From the IMG/VR virus record IMGVR_UViG_3300037247_001905, positions 1 to 61,975 of that record: a DNA stretch of 61,975 nucleotides. One strand, written 5' to 3'. Origin of the DNA: a virus. Below, one piece after another: positions 24,447 through 55,646 of the stretch. Numbering within the stretch: position 1 is the stretch's first letter; each line of letters opens with the position of its first letter. Under the pieces are notes generated by a model. The model ran no database searches. It saw nothing but the letters and a program-made list of their open reading frames with translations, and was not told the origin of the DNA. The translations under genes and the position numbers were made by a program.

Positions 24447-24812
24447 ATGGCAAAGAAGCAGTCCATCAAGAAACGCGCCGGCGATGAGCCGAAGAAGTCT
24501 TCGCTCCGGCAACTCATGGACGACATCACCATCAAGTTCGGTAAGGACGACACGGTCGTCATCGAAGGCATCGGCAACGCCGTCCTCCGCCCGATCATCA
24601 ATACCCTCGTTCAGCGGCTTGGCTACAACGTGACGATGGCCGATCTTCACGCCAAGTTTGTGAAGACGACCAGCATTCCGATCTCTCGTTCGCTCTTCAA
24701 CGAGTGGATGAAGGAACTCGGCATCGGCACCGTACAGACCGTAAGCGGGCTCGGTGAAGAGGAAACCGCTCCGAAGGAAGGCAACGCCGATGGCGAAGAA
24801 AACGACGACTAA
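24447..24812 (+). CDS. Hypothetical basic protein, 121 aa
   Basis: GAAAGGA upstream. Lys-rich N-terminal arm (1-20), a folded middle (LRQLMDDITIKFGKDDTVVI and following) and an acidic Glu/Asp tail from residue 98. This charge layout fits a DNA-recombination accessory protein. Overlaps the ATPase gene by 23 bases. Confidence 0.65.
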   Translation: MAKKQSIKKRAGDEPKKSSLRQLMDDITIKFGKDDTVVIEGIGNAVLRPIINTLVQRLGYNVTMADLHAKFVKTTSIPISRSLFNEWMKELGIGTVQTVSGLGEEETAPKEGNADGEENDD

Positions 24813-25809
24813 GCCCAAACAGACCCTCGCCGCCGGCAAAACCGTCGACGCCTTCTACGGCGACCCCATCCTCAGCGGCTTCCATAACGTCGCCATTACC
24901 ATTGCGCCGGAATCGGCGCTGATGCAGTTTGCCTCGAAGCCCGGTCGCGGCAAAACCACTCTCGTACAGTCCATCCCGGGCGCTTACGTCATCAACACTG
25001 ACACCTCATCTTCACCACAGAAACCCCGTGCGCTGGTGTGGCCCGTACGCAGCCCGCAGGGTCGCGTGATTGAGGCCGACCCCGCACACCCGTCGGATCT
25101 CTCCAAAGCCCGTCCCATCAAACTAACGTGGAAGGGCATCCGCGCAAAGAAGGATCATCTCCTGAAACTGTCCGAGCAGGATGCGCCTCGTCCAAGTGTT
25201 GTCGTGCTCGACACCGTTGACAGTGCGGTCGCCCTCATCAAGCAGTTCATGGTCGATGAGTGGAACGACCGGTATGGCGACACCAACCCCAAGGATGAGT
25301 TCAATGATCTTGACGGACGACAGGCGTGGCCTAACCTCTACGAAGAGGTCGTCACCTTCGGTCTTGAACTCAACCGTGCAGGGTACGGCTTCATCTGGCT
25401 TTATCACTTAGCCGACAAGGTCATTACGCTCGGCAAGCAACCCAATACCTACCGTGAACTTCTCAAGAACACGCCGCGCATCCAGGCAAATCTCTGGAAC
25501 GAAACAGTGGCGTGGGCCGAGGTCTGCGGCACCATAAAGTCTCGCATCGTTGACAAACCCTACCAAGTCAAGGTTACAAAGAACGGCAAACCCGTCATGC
25601 TCAAGAACGGTAAGCCCAAGACCCTGACCAAATACAGAAAAGCTAAAGAGGTCTACGTCTGTGTCGAGAGCACCGGCGAAGACGAGGGCGACAAGGACAA
25701 CAAGACGCGCTATTTCGGCCTGCCCGACGAGATCATTCTGGACAAGAAAGACCCGTGGGGCGCGTTCTCCCGGGCCGTCACCGAAGCGGTCGCCAAAGAA
25801 ACCGCGTAA
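24790..25809 (+). CDS. Sak4-like single-strand annealing ATPase (AAA_24 type), 339 aa
   Basis: RecA-fold ATPase that in phages assists single-strand annealing and recombination. Walker A is ASKPGRGKTT (48-57) in a GxxxxGKT form, Walker B VVVLDTVDS (137-145), and the VINTD after Walker A matches the AAA_24 layout. Lacks the RecA-specific DNA-binding loops. ATG at 24790 overlaps the previous gene. Upstream of an acidic-tailed SSB-like gene, as usual for Sak4. Confidence 0.75.
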   Translation: MAKKTTTKPKQTLAAGKTVDAFYGDPILSGFHNVAITIAPESALMQFASKPGRGKTTLVQSIPGAYVINTDTSSSPQKPRALVWPVRSPQGRVIEADPAHPSDLSKARPIKLTWKGIRAKKDHLLKLSEQDAPRPSVVVLDTVDSAVALIKQFMVDEWNDRYGDTNPKDEFNDLDGRQAWPNLYEEVVTFGLELNRAGYGFIWLYHLADKVITLGKQPNTYRELLKNTPRIQANLWNETVAWAEVCGTIKSRIVDKPYQVKVTKNGKPVMLKNGKPKTLTKYRKAKEVYVCVESTGEDEGDKDNKTRYFGLPDEIILDKKDPWGAFSRAVTEAVAKETA

Positions 25810-26774: not shown

Positions 26775-27908
26775 ATGAGCAGCAGGAATCCCTGCCTAAC
26801 CGCCGAACAGTCCGCAGCGGTGACGGGTATCTTCGAGATCATCGAGAACAGCAGTTTTTGCGGGATGACGCTGGCCGGCGTCGCGGGCACCGGCAAGACC
26901 ACCTGCATCAAGGCGATCGTCGACCGTTGCGCAGCAACGTACCGCCCCTGCGTCGTGGCGCCCACCGGCAAAGCAGCGTTCGTCCTCTGCAACAAAGGCG
27001 TCCCTGCGCGCACCGTCCACGCGGCCATCTATCACTGTGTTCGCGACGACCACGGCTTTGTCAAGTTCCTGCTCGACAACCGCGCAGAAACATGGGATAC
27101 CGTTGACCTGCTCATCTGCGACGAGGCTTCAATGGTCAACACCGCCCTGCACGAAGACATCACGACAATCTGTCGCACGCACGAGATCCCGCTTCTCTAC
27201 GTCGGCGATCCCTGCCAACTCGAGCCCATCGGCCAAGACCCGCGATTGCTTGACGACCCTGATTTCCTCCTTGCCGAGATCCACCGACAGGCGCTGGCTT
27301 CTCCCATCATTCGCTTTGCGCACGCCGAGCGCGTCGGCGACATCTTCGGTGAATCCAAGGACCAGACGGGCCTCAAGATCGTGCCGCAACAGGCGGCGCC
27401 TGAACACGCCACCGCAGCAGACTGCGTCATCTGCGGCTTCAACGACACCCGACAACTCTACAACGAGACCTTCCGCGAAATCCACGACTTTAGCGGCGTC
27501 CTGCAACCAGGCGAACAGATCATCTGCCTCCGCAACAACCGGGAGCACGGCATCTACAACGGCATGTCCGCCAAGGTGCTGCGCATCATTAGCGAAACGG
27601 ACCGTATCATCGTCGTTGATATCGCACTCGACAACGGCGCACGGCTCGTCTGTGTCCCCCTGCTCAAAGAGCAGTTCGGCGCTCCCGCCATCCCGTTCGG
27701 TAAAGAGCCGGCTTGGGCGGCAACCGGCGGCCCCTACACCCTCTGGGACTACGGCTACTGCATTACCGCACACAAGGCTCAGGGCTCCGAGTGGGACAAC
27801 GTTCTCGTCATTGAAGAAACCTCATCCGGTTGGAACGAACACCGCTGGCGGTATACTGCCATCACACGAGCGGCCAAACGGCTCGTCTACGCCACCGATC
27901 GCTTCTAA
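26775..27908 (+). CDS. SF1 DNA helicase, Dda/RecD-like, 377 aa
   Basis: Walker A GVAGTGKTT (35-43), the PTGKAAFVL box (63-71), Walker B LLICDEASMV (112-121), YVGDPCQLEPIG as motif III, and AHKAQGSEWD plus YTAITRAAKRL as motifs V and VI. This is the order of SF1B helicases such as T4 Dda. It unwinds DNA 5' to 3' by family; the phage probably uses it in replication start or recombination. AGGAG precedes the ATG. Confidence 0.85.
   Translation: MSSRNPCLTAEQSAAVTGIFEIIENSSFCGMTLAGVAGTGKTTCIKAIVDRCAATYRPCVVAPTGKAAFVLCNKGVPARTVHAAIYHCVRDDHGFVKFLLDNRAETWDTVDLLICDEASMVNTALHEDITTICRTHEIPLLYVGDPCQLEPIGQDPRLLDDPDFLLAEIHRQALASPIIRFAHAERVGDIFGESKDQTGLKIVPQQAAPEHATAADCVICGFNDTRQLYNETFREIHDFSGVLQPGEQIICLRNNREHGIYNGMSAKVLRIISETDRIIVVDIALDNGARLVCVPLLKEQFGAPAIPFGKEPAWAATGGPYTLWDYGYCITAHKAQGSEWDNVLVIEETSSGWNEHRWRYTAITRAAKRLVYATDRF
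27710..27721 (-). repeat. Genome-wide 12-mer, reverse copy
   Basis: GGCTTGGGCGGCAA in the helicase gene, read as AWAA close to motif V; 250 bp from the next copy. Confidence 0.85.
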
Positions 27909-27928: not shown

Positions 27929-29638
27929 ATGCTCACCCGCACACTCATCCTGATAGGACTCTTTGCCGCCCAAGCCGCGGCCCAAACCCCGTCCGTGCCT
28001 GCGAAGGCACCTGTAGCGCGGTTTCTCGACCCGCCGGGGCTGCCTGCCGTAACCATCGAAGTTGGTGTCTGGGACTCAACTGGGATTGCCTATGTTGAGT
28101 ACCTCAGCGTTCAACGACAACCGCATGCGCTCGGGTATCTGACGCTTGATGTGCCTTGGGGCGCAGAGACCGAACGCAATGAGGTTGTCCGTGTCGTAGC
28201 CAATGACGGTACCGAGCGCACAATCACCATTCATCTCGAACGCCCCGCTGCGCTGCGCGCGGTTGCAACTCAAGCAGAGTTCGATGATGCGCTGGCCACC
28301 ATGACCAACGGCGGCGTCATCAGTCTTGCTCCGCACCAGACGTGGTTGCTGCGCGACGTCCCCGCAGCCAGCGCCCGATGGATCTGGATTACTTCCCCCG
28401 AGGGCGCCGCGTTTGTGGTGGGTGCCGGCTCTGGTATCACCCGGATCCATGCCGACCATCTTGGCTTTGTGGGTTGCACCCTCGATCTGCCCTCGATCGG
28501 CGCGTTCTCGATTGACTCGAACGATGAAATCGCATTTGTTGACTGCGACTTGGTTGGCAAGGAGGGTATCCGCTGGGTACCGGCGGTCATTGGCGGCGAC
28601 GCCGGTGCCGGGCAGAAGTTCTACTTCGAGCGGTGTCACATCGTCGGCCGCACAACCTACGGTTTTACCGATGCGTACCTCGTTGATCGGTGCATCATCG
28701 ACTCGTTTCGTGGCGACGCGTTTCAGCACAGCCTAAACATTACGCGGTGCCGGATCGACGAGGTGTACGATTCAGGAGACGGCCACCACAAGGATCTTCT
28801 TCAGGACTTCGTTGACGTCGAAAACCAACTCATAAGTGACGTGCAGCTACTTGGGATCGCCGTCGGATTGCAGGACGACTTCGACGAAGACAACTTCCGC
28901 ATCGGGCAGTACGATGCGCGCATAGATGCTGTACGAGACCGCTATGTAAAGGCGAACAGCGTCATTCGTCGGGTGCAGGTGCTTCGCCACGACACAATCA
29001 GCCCGCCGCAGTCTCAACAATGGGGCACACAATCCAACTGCGGTATCATCGACTGCGCGTTCCTTCAGGGTATCTCATGGCGGGGCTCGGCATCGAACAC
29101 CAACCAGTTTACAGCGCTCAACGGCTACACCGTTGACGGTCTGCTCTGCGGATTGGCGTCATCTATTGAAATCACGGGCGAGCGGTTCGGCACCGGTGGA
29201 TTTGGGCCGGGCGTAACGTGGAACAATGTGGGCGTCACCGAATCGAAGTGGGCGAACAACGGGTTTGTCGGAGTCACAGAGGCGTACCCGTACACCGATG
29301 CGCTCGCGTACCTCGGCATTGAACCGCCGCTCTCGCCGGACTCCGCGCCGCCGGACGTCACTCCGGTTCTGGTCTACGACATCCGATTTGACATAACCAC
29401 GCAGGGCGTCGCAGCCGGCGATCCTGGTTGGCTTGAGCCCGATGGCCTGATTAGCGGCGCGGACCTCCAGGCGTTTACGAACCTCTGGCACACCCAGGAC
29501 CAACGCGCGGACCTGACGACTCAAGGGGCCAGCCTGAGCGACCCCGCGTACATGGTGCCCGACGGCTTTGTGACCGGCGCGGACATCGCGGTGTACGTCA
29601 ACTATTGGCACATCAACAACGGCGCGGCTGCCCTGTAA
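27929..29638 (+). CDS. Secreted beta-helix protein with two dockerin-like repeats, 569 aa
   Basis: Residues 1-19 (MLTRTLILIGLFAAQAAAQ) are a signal peptide. The body (about 100-460) is beta-strand-rich with short Ile/Val/Asn/Cys turns, like a right-handed parallel beta-helix. The C-terminus carries two 40-residue repeats of the pattern D(I/L)TTQG...GDP...PDG...GADxxxFxNxW (487-520 and 527-560), which I associate with planctomycete GC-type dockerin anchors. So the phage encodes a protein shaped like a host secreted protein. It may be a virion spike, a secreted enzyme acting on host surface polysaccharide, or an exclusion factor. AAGGAG lies 9 bases upstream. Confidence 0.7.
   Translation: MLTRTLILIGLFAAQAAAQTPSVPAKAPVARFLDPPGLPAVTIEVGVWDSTGIAYVEYLSVQRQPHALGYLTLDVPWGAETERNEVVRVVANDGTERTITIHLERPAALRAVATQAEFDDALATMTNGGVISLAPHQTWLLRDVPAASARWIWITSPEGAAFVVGAGSGITRIHADHLGFVGCTLDLPSIGAFSIDSNDEIAFVDCDLVGKEGIRWVPAVIGGDAGAGQKFYFERCHIVGRTTYGFTDAYLVDRCIIDSFRGDAFQHSLNITRCRIDEVYDSGDGHHKDLLQDFVDVENQLISDVQLLGIAVGLQDDFDEDNFRIGQYDARIDAVRDRYVKANSVIRRVQVLRHDTISPPQSQQWGTQSNCGIIDCAFLQGISWRGSASNTNQFTALNGYTVDGLLCGLASSIEITGERFGTGGFGPGVTWNNVGVTESKWANNGFVGVTEAYPYTDALAYLGIEPPLSPDSAPPDVTPVLVYDIRFDITTQGVAAGDPGWLEPDGLISGADLQAFTNLWHTQDQRADLTTQGASLSDPAYMVPDGFVTGADIAVYVNYWHINNGAAAL
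27965..27976 (+). repeat. Genome-wide 12-mer, forward copy
   Basis: TTTGCCGCCCAAGCC (27962-27976), read as FAAQA at the signal-peptide end of the beta-helix protein. Confidence 0.85.
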
Positions 29639-30362: not shown

Positions 30363-30722
30363 GTGCCAGCGATACCGCTCCACAACCGTCACGGCGCTGT
30401 CATTGCGTACGCGATCGTAGACGAACGGGACGCCCATCTCGCCGACCACCGCTGGCATCTGTCCCACAAGGCTTCGCGCAGTTATGCACAGCGCACCTAT
30501 CACATTCCCGGCACGGGCGGCAAGCGCAAGACCGTTCTGCTGCACCGCGTAGTCATGGCCGAAGAACTTGGCGATCAACTGCACATGCACGTCGATCACA
30601 TCAACGGCGACACGCTTGATTGCACCCGAGCGAACCTGCGCGTCTGCTCCCCCCGCGACAACTACCGCCACCGCGATCAGCGCAACAGCGATCCTGAAAA
30701 CATCGACCATCTGCCCGTCTGA
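30363..30722 (+). CDS. HNH endonuclease, 119 aa
   Basis: LLHRVVMAEELGD at 59-71, VDHINGDTLDCTRANLRVCS at 77-96 and the DNYRH end match the HNH_3 type found in free-standing phage homing endonucleases (HxxD-HxxG-N spacing). The N-terminal part is the matching beta domain. It makes double-strand or nicking cuts; as a mobile gene it may promote its own spread. GTG start right after the previous stop. Last gene of the plus-strand block. Confidence 0.85.
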   Translation: MPAIPLHNRHGAVIAYAIVDERDAHLADHRWHLSHKASRSYAQRTYHIPGTGGKRKTVLLHRVVMAEELGDQLHMHVDHINGDTLDCTRANLRVCSPRDNYRHRDQRNSDPENIDHLPV

Positions 30723-30730
30723 CGCGATGC

Positions 30731-30762
30731 GCTATCTGCCGTTGCCGGATAGCTGCTGCTTT
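30731..30762 (+). terminator. Intrinsic terminator of the plus-strand block
   Basis: GCTATCTG and CGGATAGC form an 8-bp stem (30731-30753, one G-U pair), followed by TGCTGCTTT. It lies inside the 3' end of the convergent minus-strand gene, so it separates the two opposing operons. Confidence 0.5.
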
Positions 30763-31034
30763 ACGATCTTTTCGGTGATGCACTCGAGAAGGGCGGTTGT
30801 CGCCTTTAGATTCTCGCTGATTATGAGATTTGTCTGTGCGGTGCTCGCCGCCTCGCGGTTGCTCACCTCAAGAGAGACCGCCGAAGACTTGAAGGCGTTA
30901 GCAACCGCCTCCATATGCCGTGCAAGTTCACGGCCGACGCTTCTCCACAGAACAATCACTACGCCGCACAACAAGACGATTGCAGCCGCCATCGGGCCTG
31001 CATCTTGTATGAAATCAGCCAGCTCAGGCGCCAT
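30732..31034 (-). CDS. Membrane protein with coiled coil, 100 aa
   Basis: One span at residues 14-33 (MAAAIVLLCGVVIVLWRSVG), then a helical Ala/Glu/Asn/Ser-rich part. Single-span proteins of this shape, last in a structural operon, are often holins or internal tail-tip components. AAGGAG precedes the ATG. It ends 9 bases from the HNH gene, tail to tail. Confidence 0.6.
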   Translation of the reverse strand: MAPELADFIQDAGPMAAAIVLLCGVVIVLWRSVGRELARHMEAVANAFKSSAVSLEVSNREAASTAQTNLIISENLKATTALLECITEKIVKQQLSGNGR

Positions 31035-43164: not shown

Positions 43165-43839
43165 CTATTCTCTTGCCGCCCAAGCCGCGTCTGGTGTGTC
43201 GTAGTAGGGTACGTCGTGTGCGCGAGGGGTTTCGATGTTGTCGGAGTCGAACTTCGTAGAGCGCTCGACGGGGCGTGGTTCGTCGGGTGTGTAGACCATC
43301 ATCTGCGGGTGCAGCCCGGCGAGAAGCTGGTCGGCCCAATGCGCCCGTGTCTCGAGGGCGGCGAGACAACGGTCGTAGGCAACGTCGCGCACGGCGTAGG
43401 CCACCGTCCAATACATATAGGAGGGGCGGCAGCAGTAGCCGCGCACCAACCGCTTGTCGAGCATGATCTTGCCGCCGAGATAGAACATCTCCCAGTCGGA
43501 GGGCATATCCCGCAAGAACTGCGACGTCATCTCGTTGAAACGGTGGTTGAGTTTGGCGTCGTCCTCGAAGATCAGGACGCCTTTGTACCCCATGATCTTC
43601 GCCATTGAAATGACGGTGTGGTGTGACAGCAACGAGGCGAGCGCCCCGCCTTTTAGCGGGTAGACCAGCGGTGGACTCTCGGGCACCTTCTTCAGTGTGG
43701 CGCCATTGATCGCCTCGAACCGTGTCACCTCCAGGCCGCACCGCTCGAACTGTGGCCACATGAACGCCCACTTATCCTTGCGCCGTCGCAGGTTGATGCA
43801 GAACGCGGCGTCCACCGCTTCGAGCAGTTCCGGTATCAT
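43165..43839 (-). CDS. Glycosyltransferase family 25-like protein, 224 aa
   Basis: Transfers a sugar (galactose or glucose in this family) to a glycan or hydroxylysine. INLRRRKDK (15-23) is the N-terminal signature, AINGATLKK (43-51) the AIDG-like element, SHH (72-74) the SH motif, and FEDDAKL (91-97) the DxD-like metal site, then DWEMFYLGGK (115-124). These are all in the GT25 order. The protein ends in DAAWAARE, encoded on a 15-mer repeat copy. Translation is coupled to the upstream gene by ATGA. It belongs to a glycan cassette placed between adaptor and nozzle genes. Confidence 0.8.
   Translation of the reverse strand: MIPELLEAVDAAFCINLRRRKDKWAFMWPQFERCGLEVTRFEAINGATLKKVPESPPLVYPLKGGALASLLSHHTVISMAKIMGYKGVLIFEDDAKLNHRFNEMTSQFLRDMPSDWEMFYLGGKIMLDKRLVRGYCCRPSYMYWTVAYAVRDVAYDRCLAALETRAHWADQLLAGLHPQMMVYTPDEPRPVERSTKFDSDNIETPRAHDVPYYDTPDAAWAARE
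43175..43186 (+). repeat. Genome-wide 15-mer, forward copy
   Basis: CTTGCCGCCCAAGCC (43172-43186), read on the minus strand as AWAAR at the very C-terminus of the GT25-like protein. Confidence 0.85.
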
Positions 43840-44111
43840 TTGTTGTCTCTGTGCAAGGGGGCAGGTTTCTTGTAGAGACAGAACGTGTTGGGGCCGGTGC
43901 GCACACCGCATTCGATCTCGCCGACACGCAACGGCACATCCTTGCCTGTGGCGGCGATGAGTCTGTCGTGCAGCATCCAGTCAAGCGGAGGGCTGTCCTC
44001 CGTGTCGTCCCGCAGAATGCTGTAGCTAGCAGGCTGTGCGTGGGCGAGGTTGCGGATAACAACGACGCGTGCCTCGTTGCAAACGGCGATGACGTTGCCT
44101 TCCCAACTCAC
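43836..44111 (-). CDS. Hypothetical protein of the glycan cassette, 91 aa
   Basis: Start taken as GTG in a GTGA overlap with the upstream transferase gene; a GTG 13 codons earlier is possible. Begins VSWEGNVIAVCNEARVVVIR and ends in basic CLYKKP; two-layer alpha/beta look with no catalytic motif. Sandwiched between two sugar-transferase genes, so it may be an accessory glycan enzyme (inference). Confidence 0.55.
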   Translation of the reverse strand: MSWEGNVIAVCNEARVVVIRNLAHAQPASYSILRDDTEDSPPLDWMLHDRLIAATGKDVPLRVGEIECGVRTGPNTFCLYKKPAPLHRDNK

Positions 44112-45010
44112 TTTTCGTACCAGCCTTCCGTCGGAACCGACTTTTCGCACTCGGCCGCCGCCTTGTCCACCGCCTTCTTGAAGTCCATTGTCGGGAACGC
44201 CTTGAGCTTTGAACTGGGTGTTACGTTGATGATGTGAAACTTCATCTTTCGCCGGGTGATAACGCTCTGGATGTCGGCGAAGCGATCGTCAAGCGTGCCG
44301 TACCGTGTGTTGTTCGATTCGCGGGCGCCCTCCGACTTGCGTTCATCGAAGGCGTAGGCGCTGCCCTTAGCGGGCATGTTGAAGTCGGCGCCGACGAGAT
44401 AGACATTGCAGAACCCCAAGAAGTGTGCAAGCCGCAAGCAGCAGAGCATTGTCGAGCGGTTGCCCTTGACGCCTGAAGCATCGTGTTCGCCCTCGTCACA
44501 ACCCCACGCCACGCTCGTCTCTTCAAAGAACGTGTGCGGCTGAAAGTGCGTGTTGCGGCGGAAGAAATAGGTGGCGGGCATCTCACCGGTACGGAACGCC
44601 GACTCCCGCTTCTTGCCGTCCTGCATTACTCCCAGCTTGCTGTTGACGTGCGCGGCGGGCACGAACTTTATGATGCCGGGATCTTTCCAGCCGACATCGG
44701 CAAAACGATTAGGCGGGTCCGTGCAGCACCAGAAGTTCGGACGGTGTACCAACCACCCATTGTTCAGGCCCATCGTCATCAGACCGCGTCTACGCAACTG
44801 ATCGAGCGGTGTCTTTTTTAGCGACGGCCCGTTCAACAAGAGGAACAGGGATGAGCCGTGTCCCGACGTGTGCGCGTACACCCCGGAAAGAGGCGCGGGC
44901 GTGCCGTCGGCGCGAAACACCAGATTTGGGTAGAAGCGCTGGCCGCGCCACGGCGCAGAAATGTCAGATGGAGACGTGTGTCGGTTGCGGGGGAGTTCGG
45001 TGTCGATCAT
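44108..45010 (-). CDS. Maf/CST-like glycosyltransferase, 300 aa
   Basis: Residues 55-66 (LFLLLNGPSLKK) are the nucleotide-binding-type NGPSL element shared by CST-I/II sialyltransferases, MptE-like proteins and Maf flagellin glycosyltransferases, followed by GLMTMGLNNGW (76-86) and RPNFWCCTDPPNRF. Later YLVGADFNM (205-213) is a second alpha/beta strand. Family members transfer sialic, pseudaminic or similar acids, Maf onto Ser/Thr of protein. The residues 25-50 also share a YPxLVxR element with the Ser/Thr-rich protein at 46158. The donor sugar is unknown. Confidence 0.55.
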   Translation of the reverse strand: MIDTELPRNRHTSPSDISAPWRGQRFYPNLVFRADGTPAPLSGVYAHTSGHGSSLFLLLNGPSLKKTPLDQLRRRGLMTMGLNNGWLVHRPNFWCCTDPPNRFADVGWKDPGIIKFVPAAHVNSKLGVMQDGKKRESAFRTGEMPATYFFRRNTHFQPHTFFEETSVAWGCDEGEHDASGVKGNRSTMLCCLRLAHFLGFCNVYLVGADFNMPAKGSAYAFDERKSEGARESNNTRYGTLDDRFADIQSVITRRKMKFHIINVTPSSKLKAFPTMDFKKAVDKAAAECEKSVPTEGWYEK

Positions 45011-45597
45011 GGCGGGGGCCTTAGCAGTATAGTCGAGGTGCGCCTGTACCGTTCAAGCACCGTTGCGCCCTGCGCCACGAAGGCTTGAATCCACCAGTCC
45101 AGCGGGCGGACGGTCAGATGTAAGTTCTTGACCCCCATTGCTTTAGCCTTCGCCGTCGGCCTCTGCTTTGCGGGGCTCGTCGCTATCCGGCAGAACACAT
45201 GTTGCCGAGCAACCCGCAGGCATTGCCCAATGGCGCGGACCGCGTCTAACTGTTGCAGGTGCTCGAAGACGTCGGCGTGCATCACGACGTCGAAGCTCTT
45301 GTCGGGGAAGGGAAGGTTGCAGGCGCTCCCGACCACGCACGGCCGCCGCATCCGCAGCGTGCGTCCGATGACGACTGAAGACGCGTCCACGCCCATTGCA
45401 AAGCAGCCGTTTGCGTTTAGGTAGGCAACAGACGGGCCGTGCCCGCACCCGACGTCGAGTACGGTACAGCCCGGCCACCGCCTTGCTATCTCACGGGTAA
45501 CAGGCCACGCAAGATGTCCCGCGTGCATCTGTGCAGACGTGAAGTAGCCGTTGGTGTAGAGGTCGTCGTAGAGCGCGGTGTAGTTGATCTCGTTCAT
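45007..45597 (-). CDS. SAM-dependent methyltransferase, class I, 196 aa
   Basis: VLDVGCGHG (46-54) is the SAM-binding loop, GVDASSVVI (69-77) the acidic second motif, and MHADVFEHLQQLDAV the post-I motif of UbiE/COQ5-type methyltransferases. Members in glycan clusters O-methylate sugars, which fits this neighbourhood. ATGA overlaps on both sides couple it to the transferase genes. Confidence 0.85.
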   Translation of the reverse strand: MNEINYTALYDDLYTNGYFTSAQMHAGHLAWPVTREIARRWPGCTVLDVGCGHGPSVAYLNANGCFAMGVDASSVVIGRTLRMRRPCVVGSACNLPFPDKSFDVVMHADVFEHLQQLDAVRAIGQCLRVARQHVFCRIATSPAKQRPTAKAKAMGVKNLHLTVRPLDWWIQAFVAQGATVLERYRRTSTILLRPPP

Positions 45598-46148
45598 GGC
45601 GTCACCTGTGCAATATAGCCGGCTGCAACAACGTCCGCCAGCCATTCACGCTCCGCTGTTTCGGCGTGCTGTCGGTTTTCGGGGGCGTCCAGTTCCCAGT
45701 AGTGCTTGCCCATCTTGTCCATCTCTCCAATGCCGCAGAACCGCACGGGGCGTTCACAGCCCATGAGCAACGCCGCCCGCAACACAATAATGCCGAGAGA
45801 TGGCCCAACGCCGTCACCCCACAACGGGTGTTCGTCGCCGGCGATCCACTCCGCCGCGTACGGCACGAGAATCACGGGCAATGGCGTCCACAACCGGGAA
45901 TACTTTTCCAGATAACCGCTTGGGATGTGCGGCGGCACCCATAACCACACGCGGCAGCAATCGCCCGGCGGTTCTCTTTGGATATTGCCCCAGTTCACGA
46001 CCCAATCGGTTGTGCGACAACCAACATCGTTCTCGTGGCCGTCCGTTACGAAGTTGTTGAGCCGAACAACACGGTCGCACGCGTCAATCTGGGTTCCCAT
46101 CTCGGACCCTGCAAGAGACGGTGCGTTTCCAACAACGATCATGCTCAT
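45594..46148 (-). CDS. GT29-type sialyltransferase-like protein, 184 aa
   Basis: All three sialylmotifs of family GT29 can be read: L motif MIVVGNAPSLAGSEMGTQID with RLNNF and NDVGCRTTD (3-48), S motif GPSLGIIVLRAALLMGC then FCGIG (115-141), and the very-short motif HYWE (149-152) with the His that serves as catalytic base in this family. Family members use CMP-sialic acid. At 184 aa it is much shorter than animal enzymes, with no signal anchor. GT29 is rare outside eukaryotes and viruses, so substrate and donor are open. Next to it lies a mucin-like protein that could be the acceptor. Confidence 0.7.
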   Translation of the reverse strand: MSMIVVGNAPSLAGSEMGTQIDACDRVVRLNNFVTDGHENDVGCRTTDWVVNWGNIQREPPGDCCRVWLWVPPHIPSGYLEKYSRLWTPLPVILVPYAAEWIAGDEHPLWGDGVGPSLGIIVLRAALLMGCERPVRFCGIGEMDKMGKHYWELDAPENRQHAETAEREWLADVVAAGYIAQVTP

Positions 46149-53258: not shown

Positions 53259-53628
53259 GATCGGCCTCCGCCCGCGCTTCTTCGGGGCTCAGCAGTTGCA
53301 TCCTATCACCAGACGGCTGCCGACGCGAAAGATCCTCCATGATCTCCGTCCGGATACGGTCAAGCCCCTCAGACAACGCCTTCGCGATCGCGGGCCGCAT
53401 CTCCTCCAGCACGGCCGCGCGGTCGGCCTCCGACGCCGGGACCAACCGGCCCTTCTCAACGTCGGCCGCCACCGCAACCAGCGTAACGTAGTGATCGAGC
53501 GGCACGACAATGTGGTCGAGTGACAGCCGCATCACCGTCGAACGCGGCTTGGGCGGCTCGCTCTCGGACTCCTCGCCCATGACGAGTTGACGGAGACGGG
53601 AGACTTCGGCCTGTTCGTCGGGGGTCAT
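53236..53628 (-). CDS. Hypothetical protein, 130 aa
   Basis: Acidic, helical, with a conserved-looking centre LSLDHIVVPLDHYVTLVAVAAD. Overlaps the portal gene by 23 bases and the terminase gene by ATGA. Possibly a portal- or terminase-associated factor; no family. Confidence 0.55.
   Translation of the reverse strand: MTPDEQAEVSRLRQLVMGEESESEPPKPRSTVMRLSLDHIVVPLDHYVTLVAVAADVEKGRLVPASEADRAAVLEEMRPAIAKALSEGLDRIRTEIMEDLSRRQPSGDRMQLLSPEEARAEADRDSTAQG
53546..53557 (-). repeat. Genome-wide 12-mer, reverse copy
   Basis: GGCTTGGGCGGC in the 130-aa gene, read on the minus strand as EPPKP. Confidence 0.85.
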
Positions 53629-55646
53629 GCGGCACCTCGAGGGTCTTTGGGCGGCGAGCGCCGTCGAGCGGAGATTACGGCGGCGTCGGCGGGGCTCATC
53701 GTAGCAAGCGCCAGCATAAGCTCGTCGTGGCTGAGCCGCTCGCCCTGCTTCAGTCGTTCAATGACGTTGGTCTCGTCCTCCTCGGCGGCATCCTGTTCAG
53801 AGGGCAATCCAGAGACGACAAAGCGATTCATCGAAAGAGTGTCCAGGAAGTCGTCCTTGTTGAGCCCAGTGTTGTCGCCGCCGAGATTCTTGAACCCCTG
53901 TATCTGCTCGGCAAGCCTTGGCCACACCGTGTCATGCGCGTAGCGATACATCCACGGGAACTTGTAGAGCCCGAACTGCATCCTGAAGGTAATCGCGCCA
54001 GCAATCTTTGCGCACTTGGACGTGCGCCCGGGGTTGAAGCCCATGATTTCAGGCAGGTGTTCGCCCTCAAACTCTTTGACGGCCCGCGTGCGCACGACCT
54101 CAAGAAGATCCTGCACAACACCGATGCCGTCCTCGATCGCCTCTACGCCAATAACAGCAGCGCGCCAGAGCACCGCCATTGATATTGCATTGGTCACGAG
54201 ATCACTCTGCTCGGCCTGCGCACCCCACAACCCCAGGCTAAACAGTTCGTTGAAGTCTGTAAGCGCCATGCAATGCGCAACCTTCCAGTCCGAATGGGAG
54301 CCGCTCGTTTTTGAGGTATCACATGTAAGGAAGCGGGGAAAACGCTCGCAGAACTCCGTCAGCGGCATCTTGACAAGTTGCGGTATCTGGGCCTTGCCAA
54401 GCGGCTGCCGCCACCAGCAGATCAGGGTGGGCGACTTCCACGGCGCGTTGAACGCATCGGCGTCGTTTCCCTCGAACCAGTAGCCGTGCTTGTCCTTTTC
54501 GAGCACACCAAACACGGTGCCCGCTGCGCCACCGGGGTTGCCCAGCATCTCTGCCTCAAACGGCGCGTCTCCCATCAGCAGGCGCACCTCGTCAAGCGTC
54601 TTGGTATCGTCGAACAGCCCCAACTCGGATTTCTCAGCGGTGTCCGCAGGCCAACGATGCGGCCAGCACGACACCAGTTTGGAGGTGCCGTCTTCCTGCT
54701 TCACATGTGAAGCCGCCGGCTGGTGAATGCGGAACCACGCGTCAAAGGTCTTATCAACGGCAACCTCGATCTCTTTGCCTGTCTCCGGATCGGTAGCGGT
54801 CGTTGTCTCCATGATGTGCCAGAGGTACGCCTGCTGGTCGATGTATGTGCCAACGTAACTGCATCGCGTGCCCTGCCCCGTAATCATCGGCAACAACTGG
54901 TACCGCATCATGCGGTCAAAGTTCTCGCGCATCTGTTCGCGTGACGACGTCGCCGTGGGATCCCACTCGGCGTCGTCGATCACGATTTCAACGGGGCGCT
55001 TGCCCCGCTTGCGGGCCTCGGCCGACGTACAGAAAAGCCACGACCGATTCGTCAACACGAAGTCGGACATCCCGCTGCGCACCTCGCCGCGCTTGCCGAC
55101 AATCGCGCCGCCGTACTCCGGCGCCCAATCCGCCAACACCCGCTCGTTGTTGGTCAACAGATATTTGGTGTCGTCACCGAAGACCGTCGAAAGATCCTGC
55201 GTCGACGAGCAATAGAGAAATGAATAGCCGGGGTGCGACACCATCTGAAACGGCACCGACTTCTTCCAGTAGAACGTCTTGGCGCCGCCCCGGGGCGCAA
55301 CAGCCGCAACATAGTGGTAGATGACGCGTGCAACCGTGATATGGTCGTGAAACTTCGGCCGGGGGATCGCCTGCCCCTCAAAGAACATGGGGTTGAAGTC
55401 GCCGTCCGCCGTCAGGTAGTACCGCTCCCACAGGTCCAGACCGGCAACGAGCGCGTCGGCCTTGCGCCACCACATCGCCCGCTTGACTTTGGGCGCATCG
55501 CTCGCCTGCGGCGTGTGCAGCGTCCACTGCCGACAGGCGTTTACACGGGCGGCACGACGGCCCTCGTTCGTCAGGCCGTCGTAGTCAGCCGGGAGGGGAT
55601 AGTTCGCATTCCCCTCATCGTAATGAGGAACCTGTTTGACGATCAT
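53625..55646 (-). CDS. Terminase large subunit, 673 aa
   Basis: Motor that packages DNA into the head. Walker A APRGGAKT (117-124), Walker B VEIVIDDAEWD (219-229) with the carboxylates at its end, and a nuclease domain with LTCDTSKTSGSHSD (440-453), where D443 and D453 are metal ligands, and a third acidic site near 631-637 (NKDDFLD). Overlaps the upstream gene (ATGA) and the downstream one. The DNA ends made by it decide whether the 228-bp repeat is real. Confidence 0.85.
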   Translation of the reverse strand: MIVKQVPHYDEGNANYPLPADYDGLTNEGRRAARVNACRQWTLHTPQASDAPKVKRAMWWRKADALVAGLDLWERYYLTADGDFNPMFFEGQAIPRPKFHDHITVARVIYHYVAAVAPRGGAKTFYWKKSVPFQMVSHPGYSFLYCSSTQDLSTVFGDDTKYLLTNNERVLADWAPEYGGAIVGKRGEVRSGMSDFVLTNRSWLFCTSAEARKRGKRPVEIVIDDAEWDPTATSSREQMRENFDRMMRYQLLPMITGQGTRCSYVGTYIDQQAYLWHIMETTTATDPETGKEIEVAVDKTFDAWFRIHQPAASHVKQEDGTSKLVSCWPHRWPADTAEKSELGLFDDTKTLDEVRLLMGDAPFEAEMLGNPGGAAGTVFGVLEKDKHGYWFEGNDADAFNAPWKSPTLICWWRQPLGKAQIPQLVKMPLTEFCERFPRFLTCDTSKTSGSHSDWKVAHCMALTDFNELFSLGLWGAQAEQSDLVTNAISMAVLWRAAVIGVEAIEDGIGVVQDLLEVVRTRAVKEFEGEHLPEIMGFNPGRTSKCAKIAGAITFRMQFGLYKFPWMYRYAHDTVWPRLAEQIQGFKNLGGDNTGLNKDDFLDTLSMNRFVVSGLPSEQDAAEEDETNVIERLKQGERLSHDELMLALATMSPADAAVISARRRSPPKDPRGAA

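Follow-up and report, generated by a model that had tools for sequence, protein, structure and literature searches.

A phage gene for a predicted secreted protein that joins a putative beta-solenoid to a planctomycete-type dockerin domain

Phycisphaerales encode secreted proteins that carry, at the extreme C-terminus, two tandem dockerin repeats of the GC type, described by the model NF041540 (dockerin_GC; curated cut-off, 29 bits). Flanking cysteines and a terminal GC are typical of these host copies and lie outside the curated NF041540 criterion. For freshwater planctomycetes, a cohesin-dockerin assembly, the "planctosome", has been put forward as a hypothesis (PMC6461901). On the phage side, LysBT1 is a prophage endolysin with an S-layer homology (SLH) domain (PMC12285257).

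The gene reported here encodes a 569-aa protein. Like the NF041540 host proteins, it appears to be secreted, has its two tandem repeats at the C-terminus, keeps the Ca-loop aspartates and scores above the curated cut-off. It differs from them in being phage-encoded, in having neither flanking cysteine (the C-x-A-D start and the GC end are both missing) and in its body, which shows no relationship to those dockerin proteins of the class that were sampled. With LysBT1 it shares the fusion of a phage-encoded protein to a host-type surface-binding domain, whereas LysBT1 is a Gram-positive prophage lysin with SLH in place of dockerin and with a measured enzymatic activity (PMC12285257). With the planctosome it would have in common a cohesin-dockerin assembly on the planctomycete surface. 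However, the planctosome was proposed for peptidases, is non-viral and needs a cohesin (PMC6461901), and the cohesin family PF00963 is absent from seven host-type genomes, from which the true host may differ. We found no phage-encoded dockerin-domain protein in the open-access literature searched. Phage proteins with host-type surface domains are already known, LysBT1 being an example (PMC12285257), and the dockerin version is without a found precedent within the limits of our pattern scans.

The window, i.e., the whole stretch of 61,975 nucleotides that was analysed, has identical direct repeats of 228 nt at both contig ends (1–228 and 61748–61975). Such ends are expected of a complete, terminally repeated phage genome, and the contig probably is one. 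The dockerin gene has the coordinates given to it in the first-pass annotation, which was made from the sequence alone (Table 1). Its ATG start, at 27929, lies downstream of a good Shine-Dalgarno sequence (CCAAGGAGACTCTATG; AAGGAG). In codon usage it ranks among those long genes that lie nearest to the phage average, so that by this measure the gene is not a recent foreign insert. Since the Dda-like helicase gene ends only 20 bp upstream, the dockerin gene is taken to be the end of a replication and recombination operon, in which a PD-(D/E)XK exonuclease gene and the Sak4-like annealing protein gene precede the helicase gene. On the same strand downstream there are two small unknown genes and then an HNH endonuclease. 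The large genes surrounding the terminase large-subunit gene share its minus strand, and the packaging module is therefore opposite in strand to the dockerin gene.

Table 1. Positions in the window of the dockerin gene, its parts, selected neighbours and a repeated 12-mer.
Feature	Position	Strand	Basis
569-aa protein gene	27929..29638	+	ORF, NF041540 match, rung motifs, Shine-Dalgarno
Signal-peptide-like segment, residues 1-19 (MLTRTLILIGLFAAQAAAQ)	27929..27985	+	hydropathy; A-x-A motif by eye
N-terminal region, residues about 38-104, perhaps Ig-like	28040..28240	+	Ig homology to relatives not significant
Putative beta-solenoid core, residues 150-311, common to planctomycete surface proteins	28376..28861	+	rungs and homologues
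Dockerin repeat 1 loop, DITTQG-x10-PDGLISGAD	29390..29464	+	NF041540 match, motif, alignment
Dockerin repeat 2 loop, DLTTQG-x10-PDGFVTGAD	29510..29584	+	NF041540 match, motif, alignment
Dda-like helicase gene	26775..27908	+	
Sak4-like annealing protein gene, same operon as helicase	24790..25809	+	
Terminase large subunit gene	53625..55646	-	
GCCGCCCAAGCC copies	5807, 9331, 10317(-), 11264, 14743, 16565, 16697(-), 22194(-), 22788, 23905, 27710(-)		
GCCGCCCAAGCC copies, further	27965, 33159, 34155(-), 39912(-), 43175, 48034, 53546(-), 55748, 58891(-), 60411		

The protein is laid out as a predicted signal peptide, a unique N-terminal region, a putative beta-solenoid, a linker and the two dockerin_GC repeats. 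The N-terminus (MLTRTLILIGLFAAQAAAQ/TP) resembles a Sec signal peptide in hydropathy and by eye, in line with the signal peptide first predicted for it. Other hydrophobic segments at N-termini in the proteome, judged by eye, resemble membrane anchors, short proteins or antisense ORFs more than signal peptides.

Residues 488–561 match NF041540 at E 1e-11 with 45.1 bits against the cut-off of 29, which bears out the two planctomycete-type dockerin repeats of the first-pass annotation; a six-frame search with the same model gave 48.7 bits. The domain ends 8 residues before the stop codon. A motif written to fit either repeat has exactly two matches in the window and none in 100 shuffles. When the phage domain is aligned with ten host domains, P25, D26, G27, D33, D49, D66, G67 and D73 are invariant, and the Ca-ligand aspartate positions are kept in both phage repeats. 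The Pfam model for the classical cellulosomal dockerin, PF00404 (Dockerin_1), does not match the phage protein. There is no cysteine at either flank of the phage domain. Of the 52 distinct host copies sampled, 45 have a cysteine among their last 7 residues, and a few host copies likewise have no terminal Cys/GC (L070, L072). The loss of both flanking cysteines is consistent with a dockerin that would lack a disulphide clasp.

A dockerin core pattern, run over 84,980 species genomes, matched at two places, both in a single Phycisphaerales MAG (DLM2.Bin69, G001), and the domain's worth as a clue to the host is upheld by this restriction to one species; a stricter TTQG pattern had no match in the same genomes. 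The MAG holds 30 dockerin_GC places. In a sample spread evenly over the Planctomycetota, dockerin_GC scored above the cut-off in 11 of 294 genomes, several of them with at least 19 copies. With the C-terminal tail of the phage protein as query, matches were obtained in 14 of 298 Phycisphaerae genomes and in 30 of 163 genomes from the family to which G001, G549 and G561 belong, the best at E 3e-10 and with identities up to about 50%. The repeats are C-terminal in 50 of the 52 host copies. The C-terminal layout is therefore the one used by Phycisphaerales surface proteins, as had been suggested, and the domain is not confined to non-planctomycete taxa. The phage spacing (10 residues from TTQG to PDG, with DP-x-[YW]) is nearer to that of G549 and its relatives (DPxxPxYGVPDG) than to that of G001. 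The best-scoring match to the phage C-terminal tail (38%) is a G561 protein (L042 928–1992, minus strand) with its dockerin repeats near the N-terminus; it likewise has no terminal GC directly after the repeats. Judging from the dockerin variant and the planctomycete relative of the body alone, the host is probably a member of the Phycisphaerales. A terminase search, run without a positive control, gave no relative in the Phycisphaerae genomes searched, and a tetranucleotide comparison did not discriminate among hosts.

The body of the protein shows five rungs of the form xFxxxCxI (hydrophobic-x-hydrophobic-x-x-Cys-x-hydrophobic) within residues 178–276, starting at 178, 201, 231, 250 and 269. 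Among 20,000 shuffles the mean count was 0.23 and the maximum 3, so none reached five. These rungs support a beta-solenoid with a cysteine ladder. Hydrophobicity autocorrelation gave no significant rung spacing, and so it is the motif count that carries the rung claim. Pfam yielded no beta-helix match to the phage protein, even at E 10, and a single-sequence AlphaFold model had a mean pLDDT of 34, unusable for the fold. The beta-helix body of the first-pass annotation is thus backed by the rung motifs and by a cellular homologue, and not by Pfam. Searches of Pfam, NCBIfam and PDB sequences matched no polysaccharide lyase, hydrolase or epimerase family. A PADLOC match to PD-T4-6 (E 0.005) covers only 27 residues and was dismissed.

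Relatives of the body were absent from the 298 Phycisphaerae genomes. A phylum-wide sample gave one clear match, in G242, with 33% identity over residues 148–311 (E 1.9e-9; E 5e-14 by BLASTP as a single comparison); two further matches, to a beta-propeller-like protein and a carotenoid-oxygenase-like protein (L079, L081), are due to chance. The G242 protein (L078/L084) has 679 aa; it begins with a signal-like segment, and its Dockerin_1 domain is N-terminal. Its gene belongs to an exopolysaccharide cluster, where it is flanked by a Wzx-type flippase gene and a Wzz/Wzc-like one, near genes for an SLBB polysaccharide export protein, a Bac_transf undecaprenyl sugar transferase and a fucosyltransferase-like protein. 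The two proteins share a solenoid core with GD-x-FQ-x-SL and HH-x-DL-x-Q, which in the phage read GDAFQHSL (262–269) and HHKDLLQ (286–292). They differ in that the G242 protein is cellular and its dockerin is of type I (PF00404) and N-terminal, whereas that of the phage is C-terminal.

A profile built from the phage and G242 sequences finds a remote member in G138 (E 8.5e-4), and hhalign of the G138 solenoid gives a probability of 91% (E 1e-6). This protein (L085; 1089 aa) has an inverse-autotransporter barrel, PF11924 (IAT_beta, E 5e-10). As its passenger it appears to carry a distant form of this solenoid, with H-x-D-[IL]-x-Q and EN kept, but its anchor is the outer-membrane barrel where that of the phage protein is the dockerin. 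D-x-F, H-x-D-x-x-Q and EN are common to all three, the H-x-D-x-x-Q motif being conserved among the solenoid relatives. An Ig-like region is common to G242 and G138 (z 13.6 between them), whereas the phage N-terminal region compared with it gave z 0.7 and 1.1, respectively, which is not significant. One solenoid family is thus found with three display modules, namely, an N-terminal dockerin, an autotransporter barrel and, in the phage, a C-terminal GC-type dockerin. Since the G242 and G138 relatives differ in their anchors, we regard the solenoid module as a planctomycete surface-protein family with exchangeable anchors. As judged from these sequences, what unites the family is its link to the cell surface of planctomycetes, to which G242 adds a polysaccharide locus. 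A solenoid with three different anchors marks a family of surface-displayed proteins outside Pfam coverage.

Among viruses, no whole-protein relative was found in IMG/VR or in GenBank phages, and the dockerin motif patterns had no match in IMG/VR. With patterns derived from profiles, the raw matches numbered 243, 87 and 24, and no relative was among them. These scans need exact short patterns, and therefore distant viral relatives could be missed. The similarity of the dockerin protein to other phage proteins nowhere rose above noise.

We propose that the protein is made during infection and would be exported by the infected planctomycete through the Sec route. The C-terminal dockerin, being of the host's own type, would keep it on the host envelope, where the beta-solenoid may bind, cut or epimerise host exopolysaccharide and so alter the infected cell's envelope. 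The phage would probably benefit in that further phages are kept out or that progeny are freed from the slime layer. The dockerin match, the use of C-terminal tags in the hosts, the surface and polysaccharide context of the solenoid relatives and the position of the gene point this way; the lack of an enzyme family, of a cohesin and of the flanking cysteines speaks against it. Export, docking, target and benefit are each an inference, the seven genomes have no cohesin, and no enzyme family matches; for these reasons we give about an even chance to the reading that the protein is displayed on the host surface and there binds or modifies the exopolysaccharide of the infected cell. The fuller proposal, that a lytic Phycisphaerales phage uses host dockerin display to put a polysaccharide-acting solenoid on the infected cell, is possible and is put forward tentatively. 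If true, it would add a new means by which phages remodel the host envelope. Little is known of the phages of planctomycetes, and for the dockerins of these bacteria no receptor has been established; a phage whose protein bears the tag is a small handle both on the host of an orphan phage and on the docking target of the tag.

The same solenoid could instead act from the particle, as a virion-associated depolymerase or adhesin whose dockerin attaches the virion to a host dockerin receptor. Beta-helix folds are common in tail spikes, and a dockerin would confer host specificity. However, the predicted signal peptide, the place of the gene at the end of a plus-strand replication operon and the minus strand of the terminase and the large genes around it favour export by the host during infection over packaging in the particle; moreover, comparison with other phage proteins gave nothing above noise, and the homologues are cellular surface proteins. 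We consider the virion reading decidedly unlikely, and a particle that anchors itself with the protein is the weakest of the three ideas in the first-pass annotation. The other two, glycan depolymerisation and a block to superinfection, may hold and are compatible with the evidence, in that the best relative lies in an exopolysaccharide cluster; against this, no catalytic site was identified.

The dockerin might also be a decoy that competes for host dockerin receptors and displaces the host's surface enzymes, in which case the solenoid would serve as ballast or as a shield. Dockerin proteins are numerous in host cells and a planctosome has been proposed (PMC6461901), but the seven host-type genomes have no canonical cohesin, and because the solenoid core is conserved it suggests a job of its own; this explanation is distinctly improbable. 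That the gene is host cargo of little or no use to the phage, or one that only helps the host to stick or feed, would agree with closest relatives that are cellular and with the absence of a found viral relative. It is at odds with the intact 569-aa frame, the good ribosome site and the phage-like codon usage, and an identity to host proteins of only 33–50% argues against a recent capture, so we regard cargo as unlikely. Host-like domain types could likewise reflect an assembly chimera or host contamination, but phage genes flank both sides (the helicase upstream and the HNH endonuclease downstream) and the contig ends are identical over 228 nt, as in a complete phage genome, which makes a non-phage gene scarcely credible.

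Several minor features of the window may be recorded alongside the favoured reading of a protein displayed on the infected cell. The HNH endonuclease (HNH_3, E 2.6e-9; 30363–30722, plus strand) is free-standing and lies between two converging gene arms. Next to it, 30732–31034 (minus strand) encodes a protein of 100 aa that has a single strong transmembrane segment and a charged tail and is holin-like by eye, for which family searches gave nothing worth naming. In the minus-strand arm, 43165–46148 encodes GT25, a sialyltransferase-like GT29, another sialyltransferase-like protein and a methyltransferase, a glycosyltransferase-like block that could decorate virion or host glycans.

The 12-mer GCCGCCCAAGCC, the core of TTGCCGCCCAAGCCG, has 21 exact copies in the window, on both strands and mostly inside genes, one of them (27965) inside the signal-peptide code of the dockerin gene. 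At up to one mismatch there are 27 copies against 0.75 expected, with a one-mismatch copy at each contig end (4 and 61751). It is absent from all the other loci examined. The next most frequent unrelated 12-mer, CCAACACGAAAG, has 5 copies and extends to CCAACACGAAAGGA; it is possibly a promoter or ribosome-site element.
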